From positions 1 to 40,093 of the forward strand of contig JAUVLG010000018.1 of assembly GCA_030595835.1 (NCBI GenBank): a stretch of 40,093 nucleotides of DNA, in the 5' to 3' direction. The number at the start of each line of letters is the position of its first letter. The first letter of the stretch is position 1. The position numbers and the translations under genes were made by a program. The stretch is from Candidatus Eiseniibacteriota bacterium. GTDB lineage: Bacteria; Joyebacterota; Joyebacteria; Joyebacterales; Joyebacteraceae. The notes beneath the pieces are model-generated. The model was not told the DNA's origin and did not search any database. It saw nothing but the letters and a program-made list of their open reading frames with translations. Below are positions 1 to 39,766 of the stretch, piece by piece.

Positions 1-1277
1 ACGGTCGCGTCGTAGGGCGCATGGAGCTTACTGACCGGCGTGCAGCTCGTCCAGCAGGCGTCCGACAGGTCTCCATCGATGACAGGAGGGTCCGACACGA
101 TCCTGCCTTTCGCCGTTCTCATCACGCGCGCCGGCAGATCAACGTCGAGCAACTTCCCGTTCGACAGCGGATAGCGGCAGCTCATATGCGGCGCCGGATA
201 GAGCTCCCCGTGGTTGAGCATCATGAATGTGAGCGTCTTTGTCTCACCCGGATCGACCGCTATGATCGCTTCCTCGGGATCGACGGTCCATCCTTCCGGG
301 ACGTCCCAAACCATCACGTCGTCAATGACCTTGTCCGTCACATTCTCGATCGTGACGTCCACGGAAGCCCGAAGCGACGCGTCGTCGAAGACCCTCACGG
401 CACCGATCGTGATGAGTTCACTCTCCACGCGTTCGATCTCGCGGACGTCATCCTGCGTCACCACGCCGCGCGGGTAGATGCCGCCCAGGTCGATGACCGC
501 CAGCTCGTATCCGGGAGATGTCACGGTGACCCAACCGAACTGGAAGAACTCCCCTCTGGTAACGGGCTGCTCGGCGCTCCGGTACATGCCACCTCCCGAG
601 CTGCCCATGACCGTGTAGTCGATGCCGTCGAACTCCGTCGTGAAGTAGTGGTGAAGGTGGCCGTTGAAGACCGCGTCCACGCCGTACTCGACGAAGATGT
701 CGTGGAGAGCATCGGGCTCGCCCAGCACGAGGGTCTGCGACCACAGCGGCCTGTGGGCGAACACGAAGATGTTCTCGGCCTCACTGTGCCGCGCGAGGTC
801 CGCGACGAGCCAGTCCCTCTGCTCCTCCGGAAAATCCGCGGCCGCGTCGATGCGGCTGTTGTCGAGGACCACGAAATGAGTGTTCTCGTAGTCGAACGAG
901 TAGTAGGGATCGAAGCCCGTTCTGGCCCTGTACATGACCTCTGACTCGTCATCCCAGATATCGTGGTTGCCGGCAGTCATGTACAGAGGCGCCTCGAGCG
1001 CGCCAATGAGAACCATAAGCGAATCCCATTCAGCTTCGGACCGCTCGTAATCCTCGCCGTATCCCTCGATATAGTCGCCGACTGCGACCACGAAATCGGG
1101 GTTCAGGAGGTTGATCTCCTCTATTACCTGCGGGAAGATGCCAGGCGTGTGCCCGCCGGTGCGGTCGCTCAAAATCGCGAACCGGAAGCGCGGCTCCGCG
1201 TTGTCGCCGGTGGCGGCCGAGCAGAGGCACGCGACCAGGCAGACCGCGACCACTGACGCTGCGAACGTCCGTCTCAT
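1..1277 (-). CDS. Secreted calcineurin-like metallophosphoesterase, 3' end cut by window edge
   Basis: The frame starts at an ATG at 1277 preceded by GAGGAGG and stays open to base 1, giving at least 425 residues. An N-terminal signal (about residues 1-24) has cysteines in LVAC/CLCS that could form a weak lipobox. The phosphoesterase core shows SDRTGG (Asp38), GDYIE (Asp68), AGNHD (Asn104-His105), FAHRP and NGHLHHY, which are the metal ligands of the calcineurin superfamily. The first ligand motif is DRT rather than the usual DxH. I recall this DRTGG form from a secreted subfamily, but have not checked it. A NEW3-like beta domain follows, and the last visible residues (DPPVIDGDLSDACW) resemble the start of a CBM9-like sugar-binding domain. 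The substrate is unknown. The protein probably acts in the periplasm or at the cell surface. Confidence 0.85.
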   Translation of the reverse strand, partial: MRRTFAASVVAVCLVACLCSAATGDNAEPRFRFAILSDRTGGHTPGIFPQVIEEINLLNPDFVVAVGDYIEGYGEDYERSEAEWDSLMVLIGALEAPLYMTAGNHDIWDDESEVMYRARTGFDPYYSFDYENTHFVVLDNSRIDAAADFPEEQRDWLVADLARHSEAENIFVFAHRPLWSQTLVLGEPDALHDIFVEYGVDAVFNGHLHHYFTTEFDGIDYTVMGSSGGGMYRSAEQPVTRGEFFQFGWVTVTSPGYELAVIDLGGIYPRGVVTQDDVREIERVESELITIGAVRVFDDASLRASVDVTIENVTDKVIDDVMVWDVPEGWTVDPEEAIIAVDPGETKTLTFMMLNHGELYPAPHMSCRYPLSNGKLLDVDLPARVMRTAKGRIVSDPPVIDGDLSDACWTSCTPVSKLHAPYDAT

Positions 1278-1350
1278 GTCGACAACCTCCTCTCCCGACG
1301 CGAATCCCCGCGCCGGACCACAAGATGCCCCTGGTGATGGAAGAGGCTCG

Positions 1351-1379
1351 ATGCTAACTCCCGCCCCCCGGGGTGTCAA
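1351..1379 (-). promoter_or_regulatory. Sigma-70-type promoter for the phosphoesterase
   Basis: On the minus strand TTGACA (1374-1379) is followed after 17 bases by TAGCAT (1351-1356). This is a perfect -35 and a 4/6 -10 at ideal spacing, 74 bases upstream of the start codon at 1277. Confidence 0.65.
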
Positions 1380-1662
1380 CCGCGCGACCTTCCCGCGACC
1401 GTCCGTGGAGCATCGCCTTGTCCTCCACCCGCAGTCGGAGAACCTCGCCCCCCACCGTCCACCCATCGCCGATCAACGACGGACCAACGAGTTCACATCG
1501 AGAGCCGACCGCCGTCACCGCGGAAGCCTCGGGGCCACGAGTGAACCGATCGTCGAACACGGATGCAGGGCTCGACTCATCCCCGCCGCGGACGAAAGAC
1601 CGAGCACGCCTCTCAAGTACGCCGGTGTCGGCGTCCGGGATCATCGCCGTGCATTATTCGCT

Positions 1663-1690
1663 TTGACTCCGGATGACACGTTGCTAGTAT
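1663..1690 (+). promoter_or_regulatory. Sigma-70-type promoter for the zinc-ribbon gene
   Basis: TTGACT (1663-1668) and TAGTAT (1685-1690) are 16 bases apart, about 50 bases upstream of the GTG start at 1742. The local sequence is more AT-rich than its surroundings. Confidence 0.6.
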
Positions 1691-1741
1691 TCTACTTGTT
1701 CAGAGACGACCCCTCGCAACACATCTTGAAGGAGCTACAAC

Positions 1742-2080
1742 GTGGGCACCTGTCCCGAATGCGAGTGTGAGTTTGAGGATCCCATCGAGCTCTGCCCGCA
1801 CTGCAACGTCCCCCTGGTTACGAGAGAAGAGCAAGGGAACCAGAACGAAGAAGAAGACGTCGACGGAGACCTCCCGGCTGAGGGTCTCGTTGTTATTGAA
1901 TCCACAGAGGACCACGAGCGCGTCGGCGAGTTGAGAGAGCTACTTGAAGACAGCGGCATCCCATGCTTCCTCAGCAACGAGCTCTTCCCGGCGGCGGCGC
2001 CTCCCGATGAGACGAAGGTGTTCATCCCAAGAGAGATGGCTGGGGATGCTCGGAAGTTGATACGCGAGTTCTCCTGCTGA
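1742..2080 (+). CDS. Zinc-ribbon protein with DUF2007-like signal-transducing domain
   Basis: This is a 112-residue cytosolic protein. The GTG start at 1742 is chosen because AAGGAG lies 8 bases upstream. Residues 4-20 form a zinc ribbon with two CPxC-type knuckles (CPEC and CPHC). An acidic linker rich in Glu and Asn follows. The C-terminal half (about residues 49-112) begins LVVIESTEDHERVGELRELL and resembles the DUF2007 fold, called a putative prokaryotic signal-transducing protein, in which a short ferredoxin-like domain follows or precedes a zinc ribbon. It is transcribed alone from its own promoter. The binding partner is unknown; protein or nucleic acid binding is possible. The architecture is clear, the function is not. 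Confidence 0.8.
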   Translation: MGTCPECECEFEDPIELCPHCNVPLVTREEQGNQNEEEDVDGDLPAEGLVVIESTEDHERVGELRELLEDSGIPCFLSNELFPAAAPPDETKVFIPREMAGDARKLIREFSC

Positions 2081-2108
2081 CGAAAACGGCTCGCCCCACG
2101 GATCGCGT

Positions 2109-2591
2109 CTACCTCTTGTACCCGATGGCCCGCAGAAAATCCCCGCGCGCCTTGATGTCGTCCTCGCCCTCGACGCCCTTCGGGCTTTCACCGTCAACGA
2201 CGCCGAGAATTCCTCTGCCCCGTGGCGTCTCAACGACGATCACGTCGACTGGATTCGCAGTTGCGCAGTAGACGCGACAGACCTCCGGGCAGGCCTTGAC
2301 CGCGTTCAGGACGTTGATCGGGAACGCATCTGTCATCACGACGACGAAGCTGTGGCCGGCACCCACGTCGCCTGCTATCTTCACTGCCGCCACCTTGAGG
2401 TCTTCGTCATTCCCGTCGAATCGAATGAGGCACGGTCCCGACGCCTCACAGAACGCGACCCCGAACTTCATGCATGGCGCTGAACTGACGAGTGCCTCGT
2501 AGAGATCTTCGATGGTCTTGATGAAGTGGCTCTGTCCGAGGATGATGTTTGCGCCTTCGGGGAACTCGATGGAGACGATCTGCGTTTCCAC
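2109..2591 (-). CDS. Adenosine-specific kinase (COG1839 / PF04008 type)
   Basis: The 160-residue product matches the adenosine/AMP kinase family along its length. Recognisable blocks include ANIILGQSHFIKTIEDLYEA near the N-terminus, CEASGPCLIRFDGND in the middle, PEVCRVYCATANPV, and GRGILGVVDG near the end. The family is small, found in archaea and scattered bacteria, and is reported to phosphorylate adenosine. I chose the GTG at 2591 rather than the one at 2597. The AAGGAG sequence abuts the 2597 codon directly, while it sits six bases from 2591, and homologues begin close to this point. The gene is convergent with the zinc-ribbon gene, with 28 bases between their stops, and has no obvious operon partner. 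Confidence 0.87.
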   Translation of the reverse strand: METQIVSIEFPEGANIILGQSHFIKTIEDLYEALVSSAPCMKFGVAFCEASGPCLIRFDGNDEDLKVAAVKIAGDVGAGHSFVVVMTDAFPINVLNAVKACPEVCRVYCATANPVDVIVVETPRGRGILGVVDGESPKGVEGEDDIKARGDFLRAIGYKR

Positions 2592-30587: not shown

Positions 30588-31652
30588 ATGAGACCCATGA
30601 TACTGGCTCTCGCGACCGCGATCGCCGCGCTGGTGTTCGCGTCAGCTGCCATTTGCGGCATCATCGTCGTCGACCCCGCTGGCGGCGGCAACTTCGACAA
30701 TATCCCGGAGGCCATGTTCCACGGCTCGGCTGACGACACGGTGCTGGTGCTGCCGGGCTTCTACGAGGCGGAAGCGGGTATTGCCTACCCGTGGCCCATC
30801 GACCTGGACGCCGACAGCCCGGTGCTCGTGAGCCAGGCGGGAGCGGAACTCACGCTCATCTTCGGGGGCGGGATGCGACCCGCGTTCGAGGTGCCGGACG
30901 GCACGTTCAACGCGCGGGCCTTCATCACGGGCTTCCAGTTCAGGTTGCTGGAAACGCCACTGGACTGGGGCTACCCGGCAAGCGGCACCGTCCACTTCAC
31001 GGACAACATCGTCGAGGGGTGCGGGACTGGACTGGACGTCCGCATGGGTGAAGGGCTGGTAGCCAGGAACATCATCGAGGGACCGGGCAACTATGGGATT
31101 CAGGCCGGGCACTTCGATGGCGTGATAGAGGACAACGAGATACACGGGTTCAAGGACGGCATCATCGGCGCGGACGGGAGCACAATGATACAGCGAAACC
31201 ACATCCACGACAACGGGATCAGCGGTGTGGGGGGGTTCGACAACTGCATCGCAATCGGCAATCTCGTTGAGAACAACGGTTGGGCCGGCTTCGGCATCTC
31301 GTTCGACGCCCACCTGACGGGCAACGTCATCCGTGGCAACGGCACGGGCATCGAGTTCTGGGGCGGACCTCACAACGGATTTCTGAATGGGAACGACATC
31401 TACGACAACGTGGAGTTCGCCGTACACTCATACTGCGAAGAGCATATCCCCTACCCGCCCAACTTCGATGCCGCCATGAACTGGTGGGGCACGACCGACC
31501 CGGACGAGGTTGCCGCGGGGATATGGGACTGCCATGACAGCAGGTGGGCGGCCGTATGCTTCGTCGTCGAGCCGTGGTGTACAGCGCCCGGGTGCGACCC
31601 CACTCCTACCGCGCCATCCAGCTGGGGCGCCATCAAGGCCGTGTACAGATGA
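30588..31652 (+). CDS. Secreted right-handed beta-helix protein with C-terminal tag
   Basis: The 354-residue protein starts at an ATG with GAGGAGG six bases upstream and has a signal peptide ending ASAAICG. Residues 25-60 (GGNFDNIPEAMF, VLVLPGFYEAE) are the entry strands of the parallel beta-helix family seen in pectate lyases and NosD-like proteins. The middle repeats turns such as GNYGIQAGHFDGVIEDNEI, IQRNHIHDNGISG and GNVIRGNGTGIEFWG, about 22 residues each. NWWGTTDP near 300 is typical of the end of such helices. No catalytic site is identifiable. The last residues, PSSWGAIKAVYR, match the ends of the proteins at 38375-39037 and 39116-39766. It is the first gene of an ATGA-linked operon. 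Confidence 0.85.
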   Translation: MRPMILALATAIAALVFASAAICGIIVVDPAGGGNFDNIPEAMFHGSADDTVLVLPGFYEAEAGIAYPWPIDLDADSPVLVSQAGAELTLIFGGGMRPAFEVPDGTFNARAFITGFQFRLLETPLDWGYPASGTVHFTDNIVEGCGTGLDVRMGEGLVARNIIEGPGNYGIQAGHFDGVIEDNEIHGFKDGIIGADGSTMIQRNHIHDNGISGVGGFDNCIAIGNLVENNGWAGFGISFDAHLTGNVIRGNGTGIEFWGGPHNGFLNGNDIYDNVEFAVHSYCEEHIPYPPNFDAAMNWWGTTDPDEVAAGIWDCHDSRWAAVCFVVEPWCTAPGCDPTPTAPSSWGAIKAVYR

Positions 31653-32485
31653 TGGTGCGAGCCACAACCGGGAAGAACGCGCACGAGCCGGGGCTGAAAC
31701 CCCGGCTCGGCATCAGTACGTGTCTCCTGGGCGAGAACGTCCGCTACGACGGGGCGGAGAAGCGCGACCCGGTTCTGCTTGGGGCGTTCGGCGACCACGT
31801 TGAGTGGGTGCCCATCTGCCCCGAGGTCGAGTGCGGCATGACCGTGCCCAGAGACCCTATGCACCTGGCTGACGACCCGGGTTCTCCGAGGCTCGTGACG
31901 ACCGCCACGGGCGAGGACCAGACGGAGCGCATGCAGACGTGGATACGGTCCCGTCTCGACGAACTGGCCCGCGAGGATCTCTGGGGATTCGTGCTGAAAA
32001 GCAGATCGCCCAGCTGCGGGCGGCGCGATGTGCCGGTGCTGGACTCGACGGGCGCGCCGGCAGGCGAGGCCGCCGGGCTCTTCGCCGCCGCGATCGCCAG
32101 GCGCTTCCCGCTGCTGCCGGTCGGCGACGAGAGGAGCCTGCGCGATGACTCGATGTGGAGCAACTTCATCGAACGTCTCTTCTTCCTGAAAAGATACCGC
32201 GACTCAATGCGGCCCAAGGGGAGCCGTGGATCGCTGATCGCCTTCCACGCGGCGCACGAGCTTCAGATCACAGCGCACGACCAGGACGTTCTCAGAGAGA
32301 TGGAGGAGCTGGTGGCGCGCCCGAATGAACTCCCCCTGGACGAGCTCTCCAGCAGGTACGAGGAGCTCTTGACGACGGCGATGGAGCTCGTCGTCGGAGC
32401 AGCCGGGCAGGGCGCGGACGCGGCGTGGCACAGGGAGACCGCGCGGCACAAGGAAGCGGCCGGGCACAGGGAAGAGGTGGTATGA
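31649..32485 (+). CDS. DUF523-DUF1722 fusion, apparently short at the C-terminus
   Basis: The product has 278 residues. The ATG at 31649 overlaps the previous stop (ATGA), and AAGG lies about ten bases upstream. The DUF523 half (about 18-150) has the family cysteines: GISTCLLGENVRYDG, CPEVECGM and SRSPSCG. The DUF1722 (YbgA-like) half starts NFIERLFFLKRYRD and continues LIAFHAAHELQITAHDQD. It then ends earlier than usual, with the final 18 residues replaced by three six-residue repeats of H-[RK]-E type. DUF523 proteins are of unknown function; their invariant cysteines suggest metal or iron-sulfur binding. The molybdenum enzyme gene follows with another ATGA overlap. Confidence 0.85.
   Translation: MMVRATTGKNAHEPGLKPRLGISTCLLGENVRYDGAEKRDPVLLGAFGDHVEWVPICPEVECGMTVPRDPMHLADDPGSPRLVTTATGEDQTERMQTWIRSRLDELAREDLWGFVLKSRSPSCGRRDVPVLDSTGAPAGEAAGLFAAAIARRFPLLPVGDERSLRDDSMWSNFIERLFFLKRYRDSMRPKGSRGSLIAFHAAHELQITAHDQDVLREMEELVARPNELPLDELSSRYEELLTTAMELVVGAAGQGADAAWHRETARHKEAAGHREEVV
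32427..32480 (+). repeat. Three 18-bp imperfect tandem repeats at a gene junction
   Basis: Units 32427-32444, 32445-32462 and 32463-32480 all begin GGCACA(G/A)GGA. They encode three six-residue repeats (HRETAR, HKEAAG, HREEVV) at the end of the DUF523 protein and run up to one base before the next start codon. The third copy also supplies AAGAGGTGG, the likely ribosome binding site of the next gene. Confidence 0.75.
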
Positions 32486-34803
32486 GCGAGCGTGAGATTC
32501 AGAAAGCTCCGCCCGATCCGAGCCGCACCGCGGCGGTCGGTGCGCCGGTCCTGCGCGTTGATGCGGCCGACAAGGTCACCGGACGCGCCGTCTACCTTGA
32601 CGACATGGTCATGCCCGGCGTCCTGCACGCCGCACTGGTCTTCCCCGGGCGCGCCCACGCGGAGTTCAGAGGGGTTGACGCGTCGGCCGCGAGATCGATG
32701 GCGGGTGTGCGTTCCGTCGTGACGGCCGATGATATCCCCGGAGAGAACCAGGTTGGCGTCATCGACGCCGATCAGCCGCTCCTCCCCTTCGACAGGATAA
32801 GATACGAGGGAGACGCCGTGGCCATCGTGGTGGCCGAGACGGCGGCGCTGGCACGCGAGGCGGCTGACGCCGTGTCCGTCGACAGCACGGAACTGCCAGG
32901 CGTCTTCGACGCCGTCCGCGCGATGGAACCCGACGCGCCGCTCGTTCACGAGAGCGGGAACGTCTTTCTCCACGACAAGGTCAGGAAGGGCGACGTCGAC
33001 GCGGGGTTCGATGCGGCCGACATCATCGTCGAGCGCGAGTTCCGCACCTACCACCAGGAACACTGCTACCTCGAGCCCCTGGCGGCACTCGCCGTCCCGG
33101 AAGACAACGGGTCGATGACGATCTACGGGACGATGCAGTGCCCGTTCTACGTACAGAAGGCCGTGGCGCGCGTGCTGGGACTGCCGCTGGCGTCCGTCCG
33201 CGTCATCCAGACCGTCACGGGCGGCGGGTTCGGCGGGAAGGAGGACGCGCCCAGCGAGATATGTGCGTGCGCGGCGCTCGCCGCATGGAAGACCGGAAGC
33301 GCGGTCAAGCTCGTCTACTCCCGCCAGGAGGACTTCCTCCGCTCGAGCAAGCGCCATCCCATGCACGTGACGTTCAAGCTTGGCGTCACGCGCGACGGCA
33401 CGTTCACGGCCGCGAAGATACGCGCGGTGGCGGACGGCGGAGCCTACTCGACACTGACACCGGTCGTCGCGTTCCGCGCGGCTGTGCACGCGACGGGCCC
33501 CTATGAGATCCGGAACGTCGAGACGGACGTATACGGCGTCTACACCAACCGCCAGACGACGGGCGCGTTCAGGGGATTCGGACAACCGCAGGTCATCTTC
33601 GCCAACGAATCGGTCATCGACGAGGTGGCCCTGGCCCTCGGGATAGACCCCGTGGACATCCGTCTCCGGAACTGCTTGGACGTGGGGAAGCGAACGGCAA
33701 CAAACCAGCTTCTGACGGAGAGCATCGGCCTGAAGGAAACGCTTGAGCTCGCACGGGAACTCTCGGGATGGAACGAGCTGAGGCAGGTTTCGGCGCGGCC
33801 GGACGAGAAACGTGACCACGTTCTACACGGCATCGGCGTCGGGTCCATCTACTACGGGGTCAGCCTGGGCGCGAAGGGACTGGCGCTCGACGGGTCCGGC
33901 GCCCACATCAACGTCTACCGCGACGGCTCGATCAGGATCGGCGTGGGCGGCACCGAGATGGGACAGGGCCTCCTGACCGTGCTCGCACAGATCGCGGCCG
34001 ACAGTCTCGGCGTGCCGGTCGACTCGATACACGTCGAACGCGCGGACACGAGCGTGGTCCCGGACAGCGGCCCGAGCGTCGCGTCGCGGACGACGCTCAT
34101 GACTGGCAATGCCGTGATCGACGCGGCGGCGAAGCTCCGGGCCGTCATGGGAGAGGTCGCGGCCGACCTGCTCGGCATGGACGCGAGCGAGATCGAGTTT
34201 GCCGGTGGCACCGTCGGTTCAGTGGAGAAGAGCGTGACCTTCGCGGAGCTCGCCGAGCAGTGCTGGGCGAGAAACGTCAGCACCGCGGCCGACGGTTGGT
34301 ACGCCGCACCCGAGTCCACGTTCGACGAGAACGGCCAGGGCGACGCCTATGCCGTCTACTCGTACGCCACGCACGTGGCGGAGGTCGAGGTGGACACGGA
34401 GACCGGACAGGTGTCGGTCGTGAGGGTCACGGCCGTGCACGACGTCGGTCGAGTGCTGAACCCCGTGACGCTCGAGGGACAGATAGAGGGAGGCGTGCTG
34501 CAGGGCATCGGAATGGCGCTCTACGAGCAGATGAAAACAGAGGGAGGGGCGGTCGTGACACCGGACTTCTCCACCTACATCATCCCCACGGCGATGGACA
34601 CGCCGGAGATTCGGACCGCGTTCGTCGAGCATCCCTATTCGAAAGGCCCCTTCGGTGCGAAGGGGATCGGCGAGACCCCGGCCATGCCGGGAGCCGTGGC
34701 CATAGCGAATGCCGTGTCCAATGCGCTCGGTGTGCGGCTTCACGAACTACCTCTGACGCCCGAGCGCGTCAGACAGGCGGTGTCCGAGAGGAAGGATTCA
34801 TGA
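32482..34803 (+). CDS. Molybdenum hydroxylase large subunit (xanthine dehydrogenase / aldehyde oxidase family)
   Basis: The 773-residue protein matches the molybdopterin-binding subunit of the XdhA/CoxL family. The N-terminal a/b hammerhead has DKVTGRAVYLDDMVMPGVLH and YEGDAVAIVVAET. The Mo-binding part shows TGGGFGGKEDAP, TGAFRGFGQPQ, GGTEMGQGL and the catalytic Glu in GAKGIGETPAMPG. These are the usual signatures of enzymes that hydroxylate purines, aldehydes or other heterocycles using Mo-pterin. The CoxL-type active-site loop AYxCSFR is absent, so it is not a form I CO dehydrogenase. The FAD and [2Fe-2S] partner subunits are not in this operon. The start is the ATG at 32482, overlapping the upstream stop. 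No export signal is seen. Confidence 0.9.
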   Translation: MSEREIQKAPPDPSRTAAVGAPVLRVDAADKVTGRAVYLDDMVMPGVLHAALVFPGRAHAEFRGVDASAARSMAGVRSVVTADDIPGENQVGVIDADQPLLPFDRIRYEGDAVAIVVAETAALAREAADAVSVDSTELPGVFDAVRAMEPDAPLVHESGNVFLHDKVRKGDVDAGFDAADIIVEREFRTYHQEHCYLEPLAALAVPEDNGSMTIYGTMQCPFYVQKAVARVLGLPLASVRVIQTVTGGGFGGKEDAPSEICACAALAAWKTGSAVKLVYSRQEDFLRSSKRHPMHVTFKLGVTRDGTFTAAKIRAVADGGAYSTLTPVVAFRAAVHATGPYEIRNVETDVYGVYTNRQTTGAFRGFGQPQVIFANESVIDEVALALGIDPVDIRLRNCLDVGKRTATNQLLTESIGLKETLELARELSGWNELRQVSARPDEKRDHVLHGIGVGSIYYGVSLGAKGLALDGSGAHINVYRDGSIRIGVGGTEMGQGLLTVLAQIAADSLGVPVDSIHVERADTSVVPDSGPSVASRTTLMTGNAVIDAAAKLRAVMGEVAADLLGMDASEIEFAGGTVGSVEKSVTFAELAEQCWARNVSTAADGWYAAPESTFDENGQGDAYAVYSYATHVAEVEVDTETGQVSVVRVTAVHDVGRVLNPVTLEGQIEGGVLQGIGMALYEQMKTEGGAVVTPDFSTYIIPTAMDTPEIRTAFVEHPYSKGPFGAKGIGETPAMPGAVAIANAVSNALGVRLHELPLTPERVRQAVSERKDS

Positions 34804-36860
34804 GATTCCACGCAGGCCCCCCAGTGCTTCAGGTAGTGCCACCTGTGCGTCAGGTAGTACCGCCTGCGCGCCCGACGGCGTCCCCCGCGGCGGCGCTGGT
34901 GACGCTCCTTGTGGTGTCTCTCGCGCTCGCTGCCGCAACGGCCGCGGCGAGCGGTCCCGCAGGCGTAGGAGACCACGACGGCGCCGTGGATCTGCCCGCG
35001 TGCGATTCGTCCGAGCTCCTCGCGGCCTCGCCGGCGGCGGGCGTGTTGGACGAGGCACTGCGGGCGCTCGCCCTCACCCACGACGACCTCTCGTTTCGGA
35101 CGGACTACGCCGACCAACCGGACTCATTTCGGATTGCCGCGGTCGACAGACTGCTCACCCACCCCCTCGAGACGGAGACCTACGTTGCCCGGTTCGCGGA
35201 CGAGATATGCGCCGTCGCATCGCTGGAGGAACTGCTGGGCGTCTGCGCGCGCGAACTCGATCTGGTGATCGATGCGCCCGCGCGCACCGAGGCAACGGAG
35301 TCCATGGAACCCAGGTCGGCCGGAGCGACTGCGCTGGACGTACTGCTGCCGGCGATGAGGCTGGCCACAGACGAAATCGCCGCGGCATTCGACGGCCTGA
35401 CGGAGGAGCAGCGGCGATTCATCGCGCTCCACGCGCCGTCGATCCTGGACGAGGAAGAGTTCGACCCGGACAGGCCGATCGACGAGCGGGACCGTGAAGC
35501 AGAGGAGGAAGAGGCGCTCGCGGACGAACTCCTCCACATCGCCGGACTGGTTGATTACGACCGCCTGGCGACCGCCGGAGCCATCATCGCGCGCGCGGTT
35601 GACAGCTCCATCCCGCTGGTGATGGATGACCCGATGAGCCTGCCGAGGACACACACCGACCACGAACTCAAGAGGACGGCGTCCTCGCGGTTGGCCTCGG
35701 GTGATGTCCTGAGCATCATGGAGACGGAGGCGGGGACCGTGATCATCGGGGGGCCGGGGCGCACTACATACAGAGGGGGCGTCGCGCTCATCATCGACGT
35801 GGGTGGCGACGACGTGTATGAGGGAGACGTGGCCGCGGCCCTGAGGGATCTTCCAATCTCCATAGTGATAGACCTCGCCGGCAACGACATCTACCGTGGC
35901 GACCCGCACTCGCTGGGCGCGGGGTTCATGGGGATCGGTGTCCTCGTGGATCTCGAGGGCGACGACGTCTACACCTCCGGTGACTTCTCACTGGGCGCCG
36001 GCCTGTTCGGGGTCGGCATCCTGGCGGACGCGGCGGGCAACGACAGCTACTCAGGCGACACCTGCACCGAGGGCGCCGGCGCATTCGGGATCGGCATCCA
36101 CAGGGACGAGGACGGCAACGACGTCTACAAAGCCGCGCTCTTCTCACAAGCTTTCGGGTTTGTCGGCGGTGCGGGACTGCTGCACGACGTGACGGGGAAC
36201 GACCTCTACTTCGCGGGAGGGAAGTACACCGACGAGATCCGGTACTTCGACCACTACATCAGCCTCTCGCAGGGATTCGGGTTCGGTTGGCGACCAGATG
36301 CATCCGGCGGCATCGGCATCCTGGTCGATGAGGCCGGAAACGACGTCTACGTCTCCGACATATTCGGGCAGGGCTCAAGCTACTGGTTCGCGGTCGGAGG
36401 TCTGGTCGACTACAGCGGGAACGACCAATACGTCGCCTACCAGTACGCCCAGGGCGCGGGGACTCACATCACGGTGGCCGCGCTGGTTGATTGCGACGGC
36501 GACGACAACTACGTGTCGAAGGGGGTGTCGCAGGGGTGCGGACACGATCTTGCGATTGGTATTCTGCATGACCTGGCGGGTGACGACAGCTACACGTGCC
36601 ACGATCTCTCCCAGGCCGCCGGCAACGCGAACGGCATCGGCCTCCTCATGGACGACGCGGGCAACGACAGCTACTCGGTCCGGAACCCGGACAATACACA
36701 CGGGTACGGAAACCTCCGCCGGGACTATGGGAGCGTCGGCATCCTCCTGGACTGCGGGGGCACCGACTCCTACTCCGGCAGAGGATCGGACAACACCTGG
36801 TGGATGGGGAGCATGCACGGTGTCGGGGTCGACGTGGAGAAGGGGGGTGGTGCGGAATGA
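34800..36860 (+). CDS. Secreted protein with about twelve GxG-D-GNDxY repeats, unrecognised family
   Basis: The product has 686 residues. The ATG at 34800 overlaps the upstream stop (ATGA). The first 30 residues are Pro/Val-rich and partly a tandem repeat; a hydrophobic segment and AAA site (about 31-50) then form a long signal peptide. Residues 55-325 are mostly helical and acidic. From about residue 327 to the end there are about twelve repeats, mostly 25-27 residues. The pattern is G-[IV]-G-[IL]-L-x-D-x-x-G-[ND]-D-x-Y, then a variable part and [SA]-[QL]-G-x-G. The regular Gly/Asp spacing suggests a beta-solenoid with a ladder of acidic, possibly calcium-binding, turns. It is not the nine-residue RTX repeat. 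Longer insertions occur in repeats 6 and 11. Its function is unknown. Confidence 0.8.
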   Translation: MRFHAGPPVLQVVPPVRQVVPPARPTASPAAALVTLLVVSLALAAATAAASGPAGVGDHDGAVDLPACDSSELLAASPAAGVLDEALRALALTHDDLSFRTDYADQPDSFRIAAVDRLLTHPLETETYVARFADEICAVASLEELLGVCARELDLVIDAPARTEATESMEPRSAGATALDVLLPAMRLATDEIAAAFDGLTEEQRRFIALHAPSILDEEEFDPDRPIDERDREAEEEEALADELLHIAGLVDYDRLATAGAIIARAVDSSIPLVMDDPMSLPRTHTDHELKRTASSRLASGDVLSIMETEAGTVIIGGPGRTTYRGGVALIIDVGGDDVYEGDVAAALRDLPISIVIDLAGNDIYRGDPHSLGAGFMGIGVLVDLEGDDVYTSGDFSLGAGLFGVGILADAAGNDSYSGDTCTEGAGAFGIGIHRDEDGNDVYKAALFSQAFGFVGGAGLLHDVTGNDLYFAGGKYTDEIRYFDHYISLSQGFGFGWRPDASGGIGILVDEAGNDVYVSDIFGQGSSYWFAVGGLVDYSGNDQYVAYQYAQGAGTHITVAALVDCDGDDNYVSKGVSQGCGHDLAIGILHDLAGDDSYTCHDLSQAAGNANGIGLLMDDAGNDSYSVRNPDNTHGYGNLRRDYGSVGILLDCGGTDSYSGRGSDNTWWMGSMHGVGVDVEKGGGAE
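34829..34870 (+). repeat. Two 21-bp imperfect tandem repeats in the signal region of the repeat protein
   Basis: Units 34829-34849 and 34850-34870 both begin TCAGGTAGT and differ at three or four places. They encode QVVPPVR and QVVPPAR, placed just after the start codon and before the hydrophobic segment. The location mirrors the 18-bp repeats at the previous gene junction. Confidence 0.65.
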
Positions 36861-37885
36861 GACCGTTCAGTATCGTTCTTCTACTGCTACTGCACTGTGT
36901 CTCGATGGCCGCGCCTGCCGCCGCCCAGGAGGCGGACGCGGGGGTCGCGGAACCCGACACCACCGAGCTCGCCGGACTCCTCGCGGGACTCACGCCTGAG
37001 GAACTCTTCCTGCGGGCCTCTTCCTCGGCGCTCCAGTTCGAGCACATGCGCGAGCCGTCCAGGCGCATCCTGGTGGGGAACCACGAGGAGTCCCTCCCCT
37101 ACCTCGTCACCCGGCTCGACACAGACGACGCGAGGGAACGACATGCGCTGGAGGACATCCTGGTCAGAATGGGCCCCGCGGCTGCCGAACCGGTGATCGA
37201 AGCGTTCCTCGTCGAGGCCGGGAGAACGGAAACGACGCGCGGCGCCAGACTGGCCGCGGCAGTGCTCGGCAAGATCGGAGACGTGTGTGCGGTCGACCCG
37301 CTCTTCTCCGTCCACGACCATCACGACTGGAAGGTGCGCGGCGCCATCGGCGGGGCGCTCGGCAGGATAGGCACGGCCGAGACCGTCCCTCCTCTCGTTT
37401 CTCTTCTGGCGGACGAGAACGAGGTCGTCCGGAAGAGCGCGGCCGTAGGCCTCAGGCGCGTCGCCGCGCGCGCCCGTGACGACGAACAACCGGACGCCGA
37501 TGCGGCCCTGGCACTCGACCGGAACGTCATGGAGTCGCTCGCGCGCGCCCTTGGGGACCAGCACTACTCCGTGCGGTACAGCTCCGCGGACGCGCTCGCA
37601 CTGATCGGTGAGGTTGCACTGCCGCTTCTGCTCGAGGTCAGCGAAGACGGAGGGAACGAGGCTCGGCTGGTGGCCATCCGGGCCACGGGCAGAGTCGGCT
37701 CGCGGAAGGCCCTCAAGCCGCTGGTGAGAACGCTGGGCGACTCGGACTGGGCCGTGCGAGCGTACGCAGCCGCCGCGATCGGAGCGATCGGAGCCGACGG
37801 ACCCAGCCGCCGGGCGCTGGAGCGCCTTGTTGCTTCGGACCCTCATCCGTTCGTGGTCGCGTCGGCAACGGCCGCACTCGACTAG
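36857..37885 (+). CDS. Secreted HEAT-repeat protein
   Basis: The 342-residue protein has a signal peptide (MRPFSIVLLLLLHCVSM..., cleavage near AAAQE). The mature part is all helical with about six HEAT / PBS-lyase-like repeats. Clear units are ARLAAAVLGKIGDVCAVDPL, KVRGAIGGALGRIGTAETVP, ARLVAIRATGRVGSRKALKP and AVRAYAAAAIGAIGADGPSR. These usually form a curved scaffold for protein binding. The ATG at 36857 overlaps the stop of the GNDxY-repeat gene (ATGA), so the two secreted proteins are translated together and may interact. It is the last gene of the operon. Confidence 0.88.
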   Translation: MRPFSIVLLLLLHCVSMAAPAAAQEADAGVAEPDTTELAGLLAGLTPEELFLRASSSALQFEHMREPSRRILVGNHEESLPYLVTRLDTDDARERHALEDILVRMGPAAAEPVIEAFLVEAGRTETTRGARLAAAVLGKIGDVCAVDPLFSVHDHHDWKVRGAIGGALGRIGTAETVPPLVSLLADENEVVRKSAAVGLRRVAARARDDEQPDADAALALDRNVMESLARALGDQHYSVRYSSADALALIGEVALPLLLEVSEDGGNEARLVAIRATGRVGSRKALKPLVRTLGDSDWAVRAYAAAAIGAIGADGPSRRALERLVASDPHPFVVASATAALD

Positions 37886-38112
37886 AGGAGACCGCCAGTC
37901 ACCCCGGCGGGCAGGGTGAGAACCGGCGGAACAGGCCGCGAAACTAGGCAAGTCCGCCTTGGGCCGTGATCGTGGACGGGCAGCATCAAAGCGAGATTCC
38001 TGCAGTATGTGACAATACCCCTGAATTCCCGCCCCATACCGACGACGCCAGGAACCGCATCTGATTTCCTGCTCAATAAGTCTCAACATGTGCGTTTTGT
38101 ACGAAAAACCGA

Positions 38113-38139
38113 TTGACCCTGACGCCGGGATGTTATAAA
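38113..38139 (+). promoter_or_regulatory. Extended -10 promoter for the paralogous secreted pair
   Basis: TTGACC (38113-38118) and TATAAA (38134-38139) have a short 15-base spacer. TG one base before the -10 (TGTTATAAA) gives an extended -10 that could compensate. Confidence 0.55.
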
Positions 38140-38144
38140 CTACT

Positions 38145-38374
38145 AGGGTGAATTGCGGGAGCCTGCCACCAACTATGTGCAAACTGTTTGCGTGTGCTAC
38201 CTGGGCTCACAAGAGCACAGGTGGCAAGAATGTGAGGGTGCCGAGTCAGGGGATGGCACGTACACCGTGGGTCGGCGTTGAGCAGTAGTGCCGCAGCAGT
38301 GGGTGGTGGGACAACACTGAGATACCGATGGGTCTGAGGTAGGAAGTAACACAAGGGGAAAGGAGACGGACGGC
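38145..38374 (+). promoter_or_regulatory. Long, structured 5' leader
   Basis: The predicted transcript has an untranslated leader of about 225 bases. TGCCACC (38164-38170) can pair with GGTGGCA (38220-38226). Inside that loop lies GCAAAC-T-GTTTGC (38179-38191), an interrupted perfect palindrome. AAGGAG (38360-38365) is the ribosome binding site. The sequence does not match any riboswitch class I can recall with confidence; the c-di-GMP-I class was considered and its core is not conserved. Confidence 0.4.
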
Positions 38375-39037
38375 ATGAAAAGGCTAACGTTCGCAGTTGT
38401 TGTGCTGGCGTTCGCGCTCCTCGTCGTGCAGACCGCCGCAGCCGATGATTCGTACATGATCGGCATGCAGGGGGTCGGCAGTCTGATGAAGAGTCCCGTT
38501 GTCTATAGCGGGAACTTCATGTGGGGTCTCGTTGGTTCATGGGAGATCACGCTGGATGACACCATGTGGCCCGACCCGGCAGACAGCACCGCGAGGTTCA
38601 ACTACATATGGGACACTTTCTTCGCCGACCATTATCTTGATACGTGGGGTGCGGAAAGCTGGACCGGGTATTTCGATGGCGCCACGCTGCTCGAGACACC
38701 GCACTTCCGGTTTGACACGATCTCTCCGGCCGGTGTGATAGAGGGCGACATCACATTCTCGATCCTCGTTCGCGACTGGTACGCGGACGGGATACTCTCC
38801 CAGCAGGAGAAGCACCACAACCTGAACCTGAGTGCGACGGTTAACGTGAACCCCGAACTCGGTCAGGGCTATTTCGAGGATACGTGCGGGCACGGTTCGA
38901 TCAGCTCAGGCAATTTCAACTTCCTCAACCCGCCGCTGGATGACAGCTTGCAGATAGTCGGACAGCTTCAGACCTACACCTGCCCCAGCCCTGTGGAAGA
39001 GACAACTTGGGGCGCGGTGAAGGCGCTCTTCGAGTAG
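38375..39037 (+). CDS. Small secreted protein, paralogue 1, with C-terminal tag
   Basis: The 220-residue protein has a signal peptide ending QTAAADD. AAGGAG is nine bases before the ATG. The mature part shares its layout with the next gene: SPVVYSG / SPVVFGG, GSWEITLDD..WP / GSWSITVPDATWP, YIWDTFFADHY / YVWDTFYAPNY, and a W-x-GYFD block. DWYADGILSQQE sits where the next protein has a canonical EF-hand-like loop, but it lacks several acidic ligands. The C-terminus is PSPVEETTWGAVKALFE. No family is recognised. It is probably exported, and the tag suggests further sorting or anchoring. Confidence 0.8.
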   Translation: MKRLTFAVVVLAFALLVVQTAAADDSYMIGMQGVGSLMKSPVVYSGNFMWGLVGSWEITLDDTMWPDPADSTARFNYIWDTFFADHYLDTWGAESWTGYFDGATLLETPHFRFDTISPAGVIEGDITFSILVRDWYADGILSQQEKHHNLNLSATVNVNPELGQGYFEDTCGHGSISSGNFNFLNPPLDDSLQIVGQLQTYTCPSPVEETTWGAVKALFE

Positions 39038-39115
39038 GCGGGCGGCAGCAACTGATACTAGGCAACGAGAGTGTTCGAGCAACTGCCCGAAAGGGCTAGG
39101 CCAAAGGAGAGGACG

Positions 39116-39766
39116 ATGCGCGCACTTCTGATAGTTTTGGCTATTGCGGCCTTTGCAACCGTGGCCTACGGCCAGGATGAGCTTTTCGTTTGGTTCTACG
39201 GCGCAGGGACCGGCGACTTCATGGACAGCCCCGTGGTCTTCGGCGGCGCCATGGATCCCGGCGGCGACATCACCGAAGGATCATGGTCCATTACGGTTCC
39301 CGATGCTACCTGGCCGACCGCTCCGACGGAAAGATACGCCTACGTCTGGGACACGTTCTATGCACCGAACTACACGCCCGGCAACCCCAGCTTCTGGAAG
39401 GGCTACTTCGACATCGAGCATGGTGCTGAGGACATGAACGCCCTCACGATCGTCGACAACACGAACAACGGTTCGATGTCCGGTATCTGCTCCGTTGAGA
39501 TTCAGGTTCAGGATCTGAACAACGACGGCGTGCTGGACGAGGGTGAGTTCTGCAACGGCAGCCTCTCCGGTCTCGTCATCATCATCCGGAACGGCGAGGG
39601 CATTTACGACGGCATGTGCGGCACGGGCAACTACTTCGGCAGCTACATCAAGGACTGTCCGGGCACCTCAGAGACATGGAACTACGGCATGTATCTCTGG
39701 CTCGAGGACTGCACCACGCCGGTCGAGAACACGACCTGGGGCGCCATCAAGGCTCTGTATCAGTAG
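39116..39766 (+). CDS. Small secreted protein, paralogue 2, with EF-hand-like loop and C-terminal tag
   Basis: The 216-residue protein starts at the ATG at 39116 (AAAGGAG just upstream); an in-frame ATG at 39071 would bury the signal peptide. The signal ends VAYGQ. It is a diverged copy of the preceding protein, sharing the SPVV, GSW-IT, Y-WDTF and GYFD blocks in the same order. DLNNDGVLDEGE matches the dockerin/EF-hand calcium loop (D-x-N-x-D-G-x-L-D-x-x-E). The cysteines GICSVE, EFCNG, GMCGTG, KDCPG and EDC could form disulfides. It ends TTPVENTTWGAIKALYQ. It lies 78 bases after paralogue 1 and is probably co-transcribed with it. Confidence 0.82.
   Translation: MRALLIVLAIAAFATVAYGQDELFVWFYGAGTGDFMDSPVVFGGAMDPGGDITEGSWSITVPDATWPTAPTERYAYVWDTFYAPNYTPGNPSFWKGYFDIEHGAEDMNALTIVDNTNNGSMSGICSVEIQVQDLNNDGVLDEGEFCNGSLSGLVIIIRNGEGIYDGMCGTGNYFGSYIKDCPGTSETWNYGMYLWLEDCTTPVENTTWGAIKALYQ

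Follow-up and report, generated by a model that had tools for sequence, protein, structure and literature searches.

Three secreted proteins encoded in one stretch of DNA from an uncultured bacterium end in almost the same short peptide, which raises the question of whether this ending is a C-terminal sorting signal and, if so, which machinery might read it. The stretch (40,093 nucleotides, hereafter the window) belongs to the genome of a seep bacterium of the phylum Ca. Effluviviacota, available as 2.85 Mb in 265 contigs. The tagged genes and their parts lie as follows.

30588..31652, + strand: secreted right-handed beta-helix protein of 354 aa with the tag at its end (ORF; Pfam Beta_helix, 4.9e-12).
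30588..30650 (end approximate), + strand: Sec signal peptide of the beta-helix protein (hydrophobic N-terminus MRPMILALATAIAALVFASAA, heuristic).
31602..31652 (pattern match 31623-31652), + strand: tag TPTAPSSWGAIKAVYR and stop of the beta-helix protein (pattern search, translation).
38375..39037, + strand: secreted 220-aa protein with the tag, a paralogue of the next gene (ORF; BLASTP).
38375..38443 (end approximate), + strand: Sec signal peptide of the 220-aa protein (MKRLTFAVVVLAFALLVVQTAAA, heuristic).
38987..39037 (pattern match 39008-39037), + strand: tag SPVEETTWGAVKALFE and stop of the 220-aa protein (pattern search, translation).
39116..39766, + strand: secreted 216-aa protein with the tag (ORF; ATG at 39116, in-frame GTG at 39071; the signal peptide starts MRALLIV).
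39116..39172 (end approximate), + strand: Sec signal peptide of the 216-aa protein (MRALLIVLAIAAFATVAYG, heuristic).
39716..39766 (pattern match 39737-39766), + strand: tag TPVENTTWGAIKALYQ and stop of the 216-aa protein (pattern search, translation).

The preliminary description had reported near-identical ends on three signal-peptide proteins, and the ORFs and tails are where it placed them, with the signal peptides called by a heuristic, not SignalP, as in all counts below. A single residue follows the aromatic in all three tails. It had also set the beta-helix protein apart from the other two carriers, which agrees with its Pfam match; the other two are mutual paralogues (34% identity over 229 columns between the 220-aa protein and ORF 39071-39766, BLASTP), and neither was assigned a family by Pfam or NCBIfam. 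The window further encodes, at ~34900-36860 (+), a secreted protein of many G-N-D-x-Y-x-G-type repeats with neither tag nor CTD, so a C-terminal signal is absent from some exported proteins here; it is followed by a secreted HEAT-like repeat protein at 36596-37885.

Searching the DNA of the window genome with the pattern W-G-x-[ILVMF]-K-x-[LIMVF]-[YF]-x-stop returned 45 matches, and the reversed pattern, run as a control, returned none. When a similar pattern was searched with no stop required, 50 matches came back, 49 of which lie no more than 6 residues from the C-terminus; eight of the 50 were additional to those of the stop-containing search, and in seven of these the protein continues for 2 to 6 residues past the aromatic before it ends, the eighth being internal. 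A somewhat wider scan over the loci retrieved found 52 tagged ORFs in this genome, and relaxed paralogues (WSGIKALYR, WATIKSLYR, WTAIKALYR and WGAIKSLVE) occupy the same terminal position, which indicates that the real number is higher than 52. The tag therefore recurs on many proteins of the genome, almost all of them exported, as the preliminary reading called for.

These endings share the consensus (S/T)-P-V-E-(D/E)-x-(S/T)-W-G-x-(I/V)-K-A-(L/M)-(Y/F)-R-stop, in which a core of nine residues, W-G-x-(I/V)-K-A-(L/M)-(Y/F)-R, is preceded by (S/T)PVE(D/E)x(S/T) to give a tail of ~16 residues. This 9- to 16-residue peptide stands at the C-terminus or a few residues short of it. In 43 tagged ORFs of the window genome, W, G, K and Y/F (43/43) are fixed because the search pattern imposes them, and the other core columns are I/V in 41, A in 35, L/M in 41 and R in 34. 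Upstream, P at position -15 is found in 32 of the 43, V in 31, E in 29 and Ser or Thr at -10 in all; since the PVE and S/T columns ahead of the Trp are not part of the pattern, they provide independent support for the tag. A Cys nine or ten residues before the Trp had been described as well. It is present in the three window tails and did not hold as a part of the signal: genome-wide, a Cys falls 7-13 residues before the Trp in 28 of 49 tagged proteins, where 24% would be expected from body composition. This Cys is a tendency, enriched and not required, outside the signal proper. The amphipathic character ascribed to the tail proved weak, with a helical moment of 0.49 versus 0.37 for shuffles and an equal strand moment.

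Such a recurrent ending might be a DNA repeat, or might reflect 3' ends of common ancestry spread by gene conversion, and one internal copy of the tag, at locus L162, does resemble an inserted 3' end. However, the fixed residues are written with varied codons (four for Gly, three for Leu, six for Arg) and the DNA 3' of the stop is not conserved among tagged ORFs, which argues for selection on the peptide and not on a DNA element. The peptide is, moreover, kept across several phyla, and we consider an origin at the DNA level exceedingly improbable. The L162 copy (G000:C22, ~40.7 kb; ORF 1241-2575, minus strand) is the only internal tag in the window genome and sits in an in-frame insertion with NPVAVEKVSWGVIKALYR inside a MAM-like protein whose homologues are tagged at the end and whose own C-terminus is untagged; the copy may have arisen by relocation of the signal, or may reflect gene decay or an error of assembly.

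The carriers are exported proteins of many kinds. By the heuristic, 44 of 46 complete tagged ORFs in the window genome have a signal peptide, and across the fetched loci the same heuristic found one in 97 of 105 tagged ORFs versus 131 of 328 others. With their tails removed, 49 tagged proteins fall into 18 unrelated clusters. Their Pfam domains include beta-helix, NosD, PMP-like, InhA MAM, CBM20/X25, CARDB, FG-GAP, NHL and LTD, among others, and NCBIfam adds choice-of-anchor J, X and D domains together with relatives of rhombosortase-, myxosortase- and PEP-CTERM-dependent proteins. These NCBIfam families bear one of several C-terminal sorting signals elsewhere. Position, export and breadth together support the earlier impression of a C-terminal sorting or anchoring signal, and the tag is very probably a short C-terminal sorting signal; whether it serves in sorting, export or anchoring is a matter of inference.

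Several carriers are lipoproteins, five of them clear cases in the window genome (GGCS, AGCS and VGCS lipoboxes), and this would suit a retention label that docks an exported or periplasmic protein to surface polysaccharide, an S-layer or an outer-membrane protein. A cohesin-like tagged family found beside dockerin-like proteins, as for a surface scaffold, would suit it too. Yet lipoproteins that are already anchored need no second anchor unless they are moved to the surface, and no binding partner was identified, so that we regard a docking role as distinctly unlikely. The family in question is large, and its fold resembles that of PDB cohesins in Foldseek (best E 5e-6, TM ~0.5). Next to it, at loci L021, L022, L055, L057, L082, L086, L120, L131 and L147, lie small secreted proteins whose C-termini carry two dockerin-like repeats, matched by Pfam Dockerin_1 below its cut-off. 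This is possibly a cohesin-dockerin-like pair in Gram-negative seep bacteria.

The tag is not peculiar to the window genome. A systematic search covered Effluviviacota, Krumholzibacteriota, Eisenbacteria and a phylum of five genomes that includes a MAG labelled Gemmatimonadota DHS20C21. All 20 Effluviviacota genomes carry it, in 18 to 69 copies each with no control match, as do 77 of 80 genomes of Krumholzibacteriota (median 7.5 per genome), 41 of 47 of Eisenbacteria and 5 of 5 of the small phylum, with 2 control matches in total over these last three groups. Even in genomes with one or two tags, these still end signal-peptide proteins. In a contig scan yielding at least 80 loci, the matches listed were titled as coming from these phyla, from the MAG mislabelled as Gemmatimonadota or just from a 'bacterium'. 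The tag had no match in Pfam, in NCBIfam or in the open-access literature searched for the motif and for sorting signals in these phyla. It is real, widespread and, as far as our knowledge and searches go, undescribed; C-terminal sorting signals are known as a kind, and this form is new.

We examined predicted structures of two carriers. AlphaFold2 modelled a tagged family of 38 members as a confident beta-sandwich (mean pLDDT 89), from which the tail emerges as a linker and a helix (residues 160-171, pLDDT ~57) outside the core. The window beta-helix protein gave a poor model with a terminal helix at 326-333 of very low confidence. The tail is thus predicted to form a short helix on a flexible linker. 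A tag that is short and strictly C-terminal might mark proteins for quality control or degradation by a periplasmic tail-specific or PDZ protease, and an HtrA/DegQ gene does lie in a syntenic block with tagged lipoproteins. PDZ and tail-specific proteases favour a hydrophobic C-terminus, whereas the last residue of the tag is usually Arg, and the carriers, surface-type proteins numbering in the dozens, varied in kind and constitutively tagged, would be unlikely targets. A degradation signal therefore seems highly improbable.

Genomes with the tag also hold dozens of type A CTDs (TIGR04183 / Por_Secre_tail), 79 in the case of the window genome. SprA was found in 33 of 35 tagged or related genomes and the PorV family in 45 of 45, and NCBIfam identified PorU (9.6e-157) and a PorV-family protein (6e-70) in the window genome, where a T9SS gene locus lies at L209 (G000:C172:50000-61000). 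T9SS is called exclusive to Bacteroidota in recent papers (PMC12618676); despite this description, SprA and PorV-family genes are present in Effluviviacota, Eisenbacteria and Krumholzibacteriota, and PorU in the window genome.

The tag and the CTD proved mutually exclusive. With a local CTD profile (105 CTD ORFs) and 278 tagged ORFs, no protein carried both signals, while homologous passengers occur with one or the other: tagged L034 matches CTD-bearing L145 at 40% over 240 columns, tagged L094 and L012 match CTD-bearing L248 at 40% and 35%, and tagged L040 matches CTD-bearing L240 at 27% over 316 columns. Passenger domains are thus interchangeable between the two signals, and the tag stands where a CTD would otherwise stand. 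Clustering of tagged genes with CTD genes was considered and set aside: it was strong in neighbour homology clustering, but a direct count in the window genome was not significant, with 6 versus 3.5 expected (P 0.15). Tag and CTD counts over 20 genomes correlate (r 0.90; 0.64 after genome size), and we left this out of the evidence, since genome completeness and relatedness both confound it.

Eight tagless genomes (G162, G163, G168, G169 and G170; G054, G056 and G092) retain SprA and 29-132 type A CTDs, which means that T9SS by itself fails to explain the tag. Either a dedicated adaptor has been lost in the tagless genomes, or the tag is read by another machine. Such a machine would be a dedicated and undescribed export or anchoring apparatus that is unrelated to T9SS and merely coexists with it. 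The tagless genomes speak for it, as do the lack of a common fold, length or motif between tag and CTDs and the lack of a SprA match in tagged G040 and G045. However, these two are fragmented MAGs that may be incomplete, T9SS parts occur in nearly all tagged genomes tested (and in tagless ones), and passenger domains are common to tag and CTD. No dedicated enzyme, such as the protease or transpeptidase that the preliminary description had in view, was identified. We judge a dedicated machine of this kind unlikely; a separate pathway for secretion or surface anchoring that has a receptor of its own and runs beside T9SS in Effluviviacota, Krumholzibacteriota, Eisenbacteria and related phyla, can be put forward only tentatively. 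Use of the type IX translocon by the tag is a reading we hold as possible, at somewhat less than even likelihood.

If tagged proteins do enter T9SS, a shuttle would be one place for the tag to be read. According to PMC12618676, substrates with type B CTDs are often linked to shuttle genes of their own and depend on them. Of eight syntenic loci examined here, drawn from several genera, seven have a member of one PorV/PorQ-family clade beside tagged lipoproteins; the window genome contains the block twice, each copy with its own tagged lipoproteins. The block, which is conserved (loci L200, L201, L202, L204, L205, L206 and L207), contains a sigma factor-like gene, HtrA, a small protein, a relative of UDP-2,3-diacylglucosamine diphosphatase, the PorV-family barrel and the tagged lipoproteins; it also encodes a CPBP (Rce1-like) protease that has a membrane segment at its C-terminus. 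This neighbourhood represents one inherited syntenic block and one duplication, and hence few independent events, and the PorV-family paralogue adjoins only a few of the ~50 tagged genes. Given that the block is a single inherited neighbourhood, the barrel is a lead only, and its candidacy as the receptor of the tag is doubtful. The CPBP protease, which is related to myxosortase, was rejected as the leading sorting protease: the tag offers no membrane segment to cut, and the gene belongs to the same single block.

These data allow us to propose how the tag may work. Tagged proteins would cross the inner membrane by Sec, in keeping with their signal peptides and with the several lipoproteins among them; an envelope receptor would then bind the free tail and guide the protein through the outer membrane or onto it. 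In this way the tag would serve its carriers as the much larger type A CTD serves the proteins that bear it in the same cells. In the form that we prefer, the tag would hand its carriers to a PorV/PorQ-family shuttle and thence to type IX secretion, much as type B CTDs rely on dedicated PorP/SprF shuttles. We favour the scheme as a whole, a sorting tag with an envelope receptor, transfer at the outer membrane and a role parallel to that of CTDs, with moderate confidence, and likewise think it fairly probable that the tag acts at the outer membrane. Earlier C-terminal signals, PEP-CTERM and the T9SS CTD among them, were each the starting point from which a sorting enzyme or secretion machine was found. 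The tag would rank among the shortest C-terminal sorting signals, having neither a transmembrane nor a folded domain, and since it marks exported proteins by the dozen in genomes of several uncultured phyla, it can be used to predict their surface proteomes. It also offers a test case for the minimum size of an outer-membrane export signal, possibly within type IX secretion.

Among known systems, PEP-CTERM, GlyGly-CTERM and MYXO-CTERM are also many-to-one C-terminal tags that were first found computationally (PMC1569441, PMC3237569, PMC11980579), and some carriers of the tag are homologous to their substrates. They combine a motif with a transmembrane helix and basic terminal residues, whereas the tag lacks a transmembrane segment: in 48 of 50 tails, no window of 15 residues within the last 35 reaches a hydrophobicity of 1.6, and no NCBIfam C-terminal model of these types was among the matches listed for carriers. 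An LPXTG-like motif is absent from the consensus, as is a hydrophobic segment from the tails. The tag also differs from a BAM beta-signal in ending in Arg (34 of 43) and not in an aromatic residue, and no beta-barrel family was among the Pfam matches listed for carriers. TIGR04183 was absent among the 18 families matched by 48 tagged proteins and among the matches listed (25 of 30 families) for 77 other tagged proteins. The consensus, hydrophobicity, NCBIfam and the CTD profile thus uphold the preliminary statement that the tag is not LPXTG, PEP-CTERM, GlyGly-CTERM or a T9SS CTD.

The type A CTD is similar in its C-terminal position, in ending Sec-exported proteins of many folds by the dozen in each genome, and in its occurrence in the same genomes as the tag with interchangeable passenger domains. 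It differs in being a beta-sandwich of ~70-100 aa that ends in a strand, whereas the tag has ~16 aa and is predicted, with low confidence, to form a linker and a helix and not this fold. Type B CTDs (PMC12618676) resemble the tag in that they coexist with type A CTDs within a cell as an additional class of T9SS signal and are often genetically linked to a barrel-type shuttle gene. They measure 150-235 aa, and the barrel linked to the tag is of the PorV/PorQ and not the PorP/SprF family, with few tagged genes so linked. The shortest T9SS signals described are the short CTDs of Prevotella intermedia, with 43-55 aa, three strands and motifs B, D and E (PMC11969387). In contrast to these, the tag is a predicted helix of 16 aa without the three strands or the motifs; like them, it is a reduced C-terminal signal in a T9SS organism.
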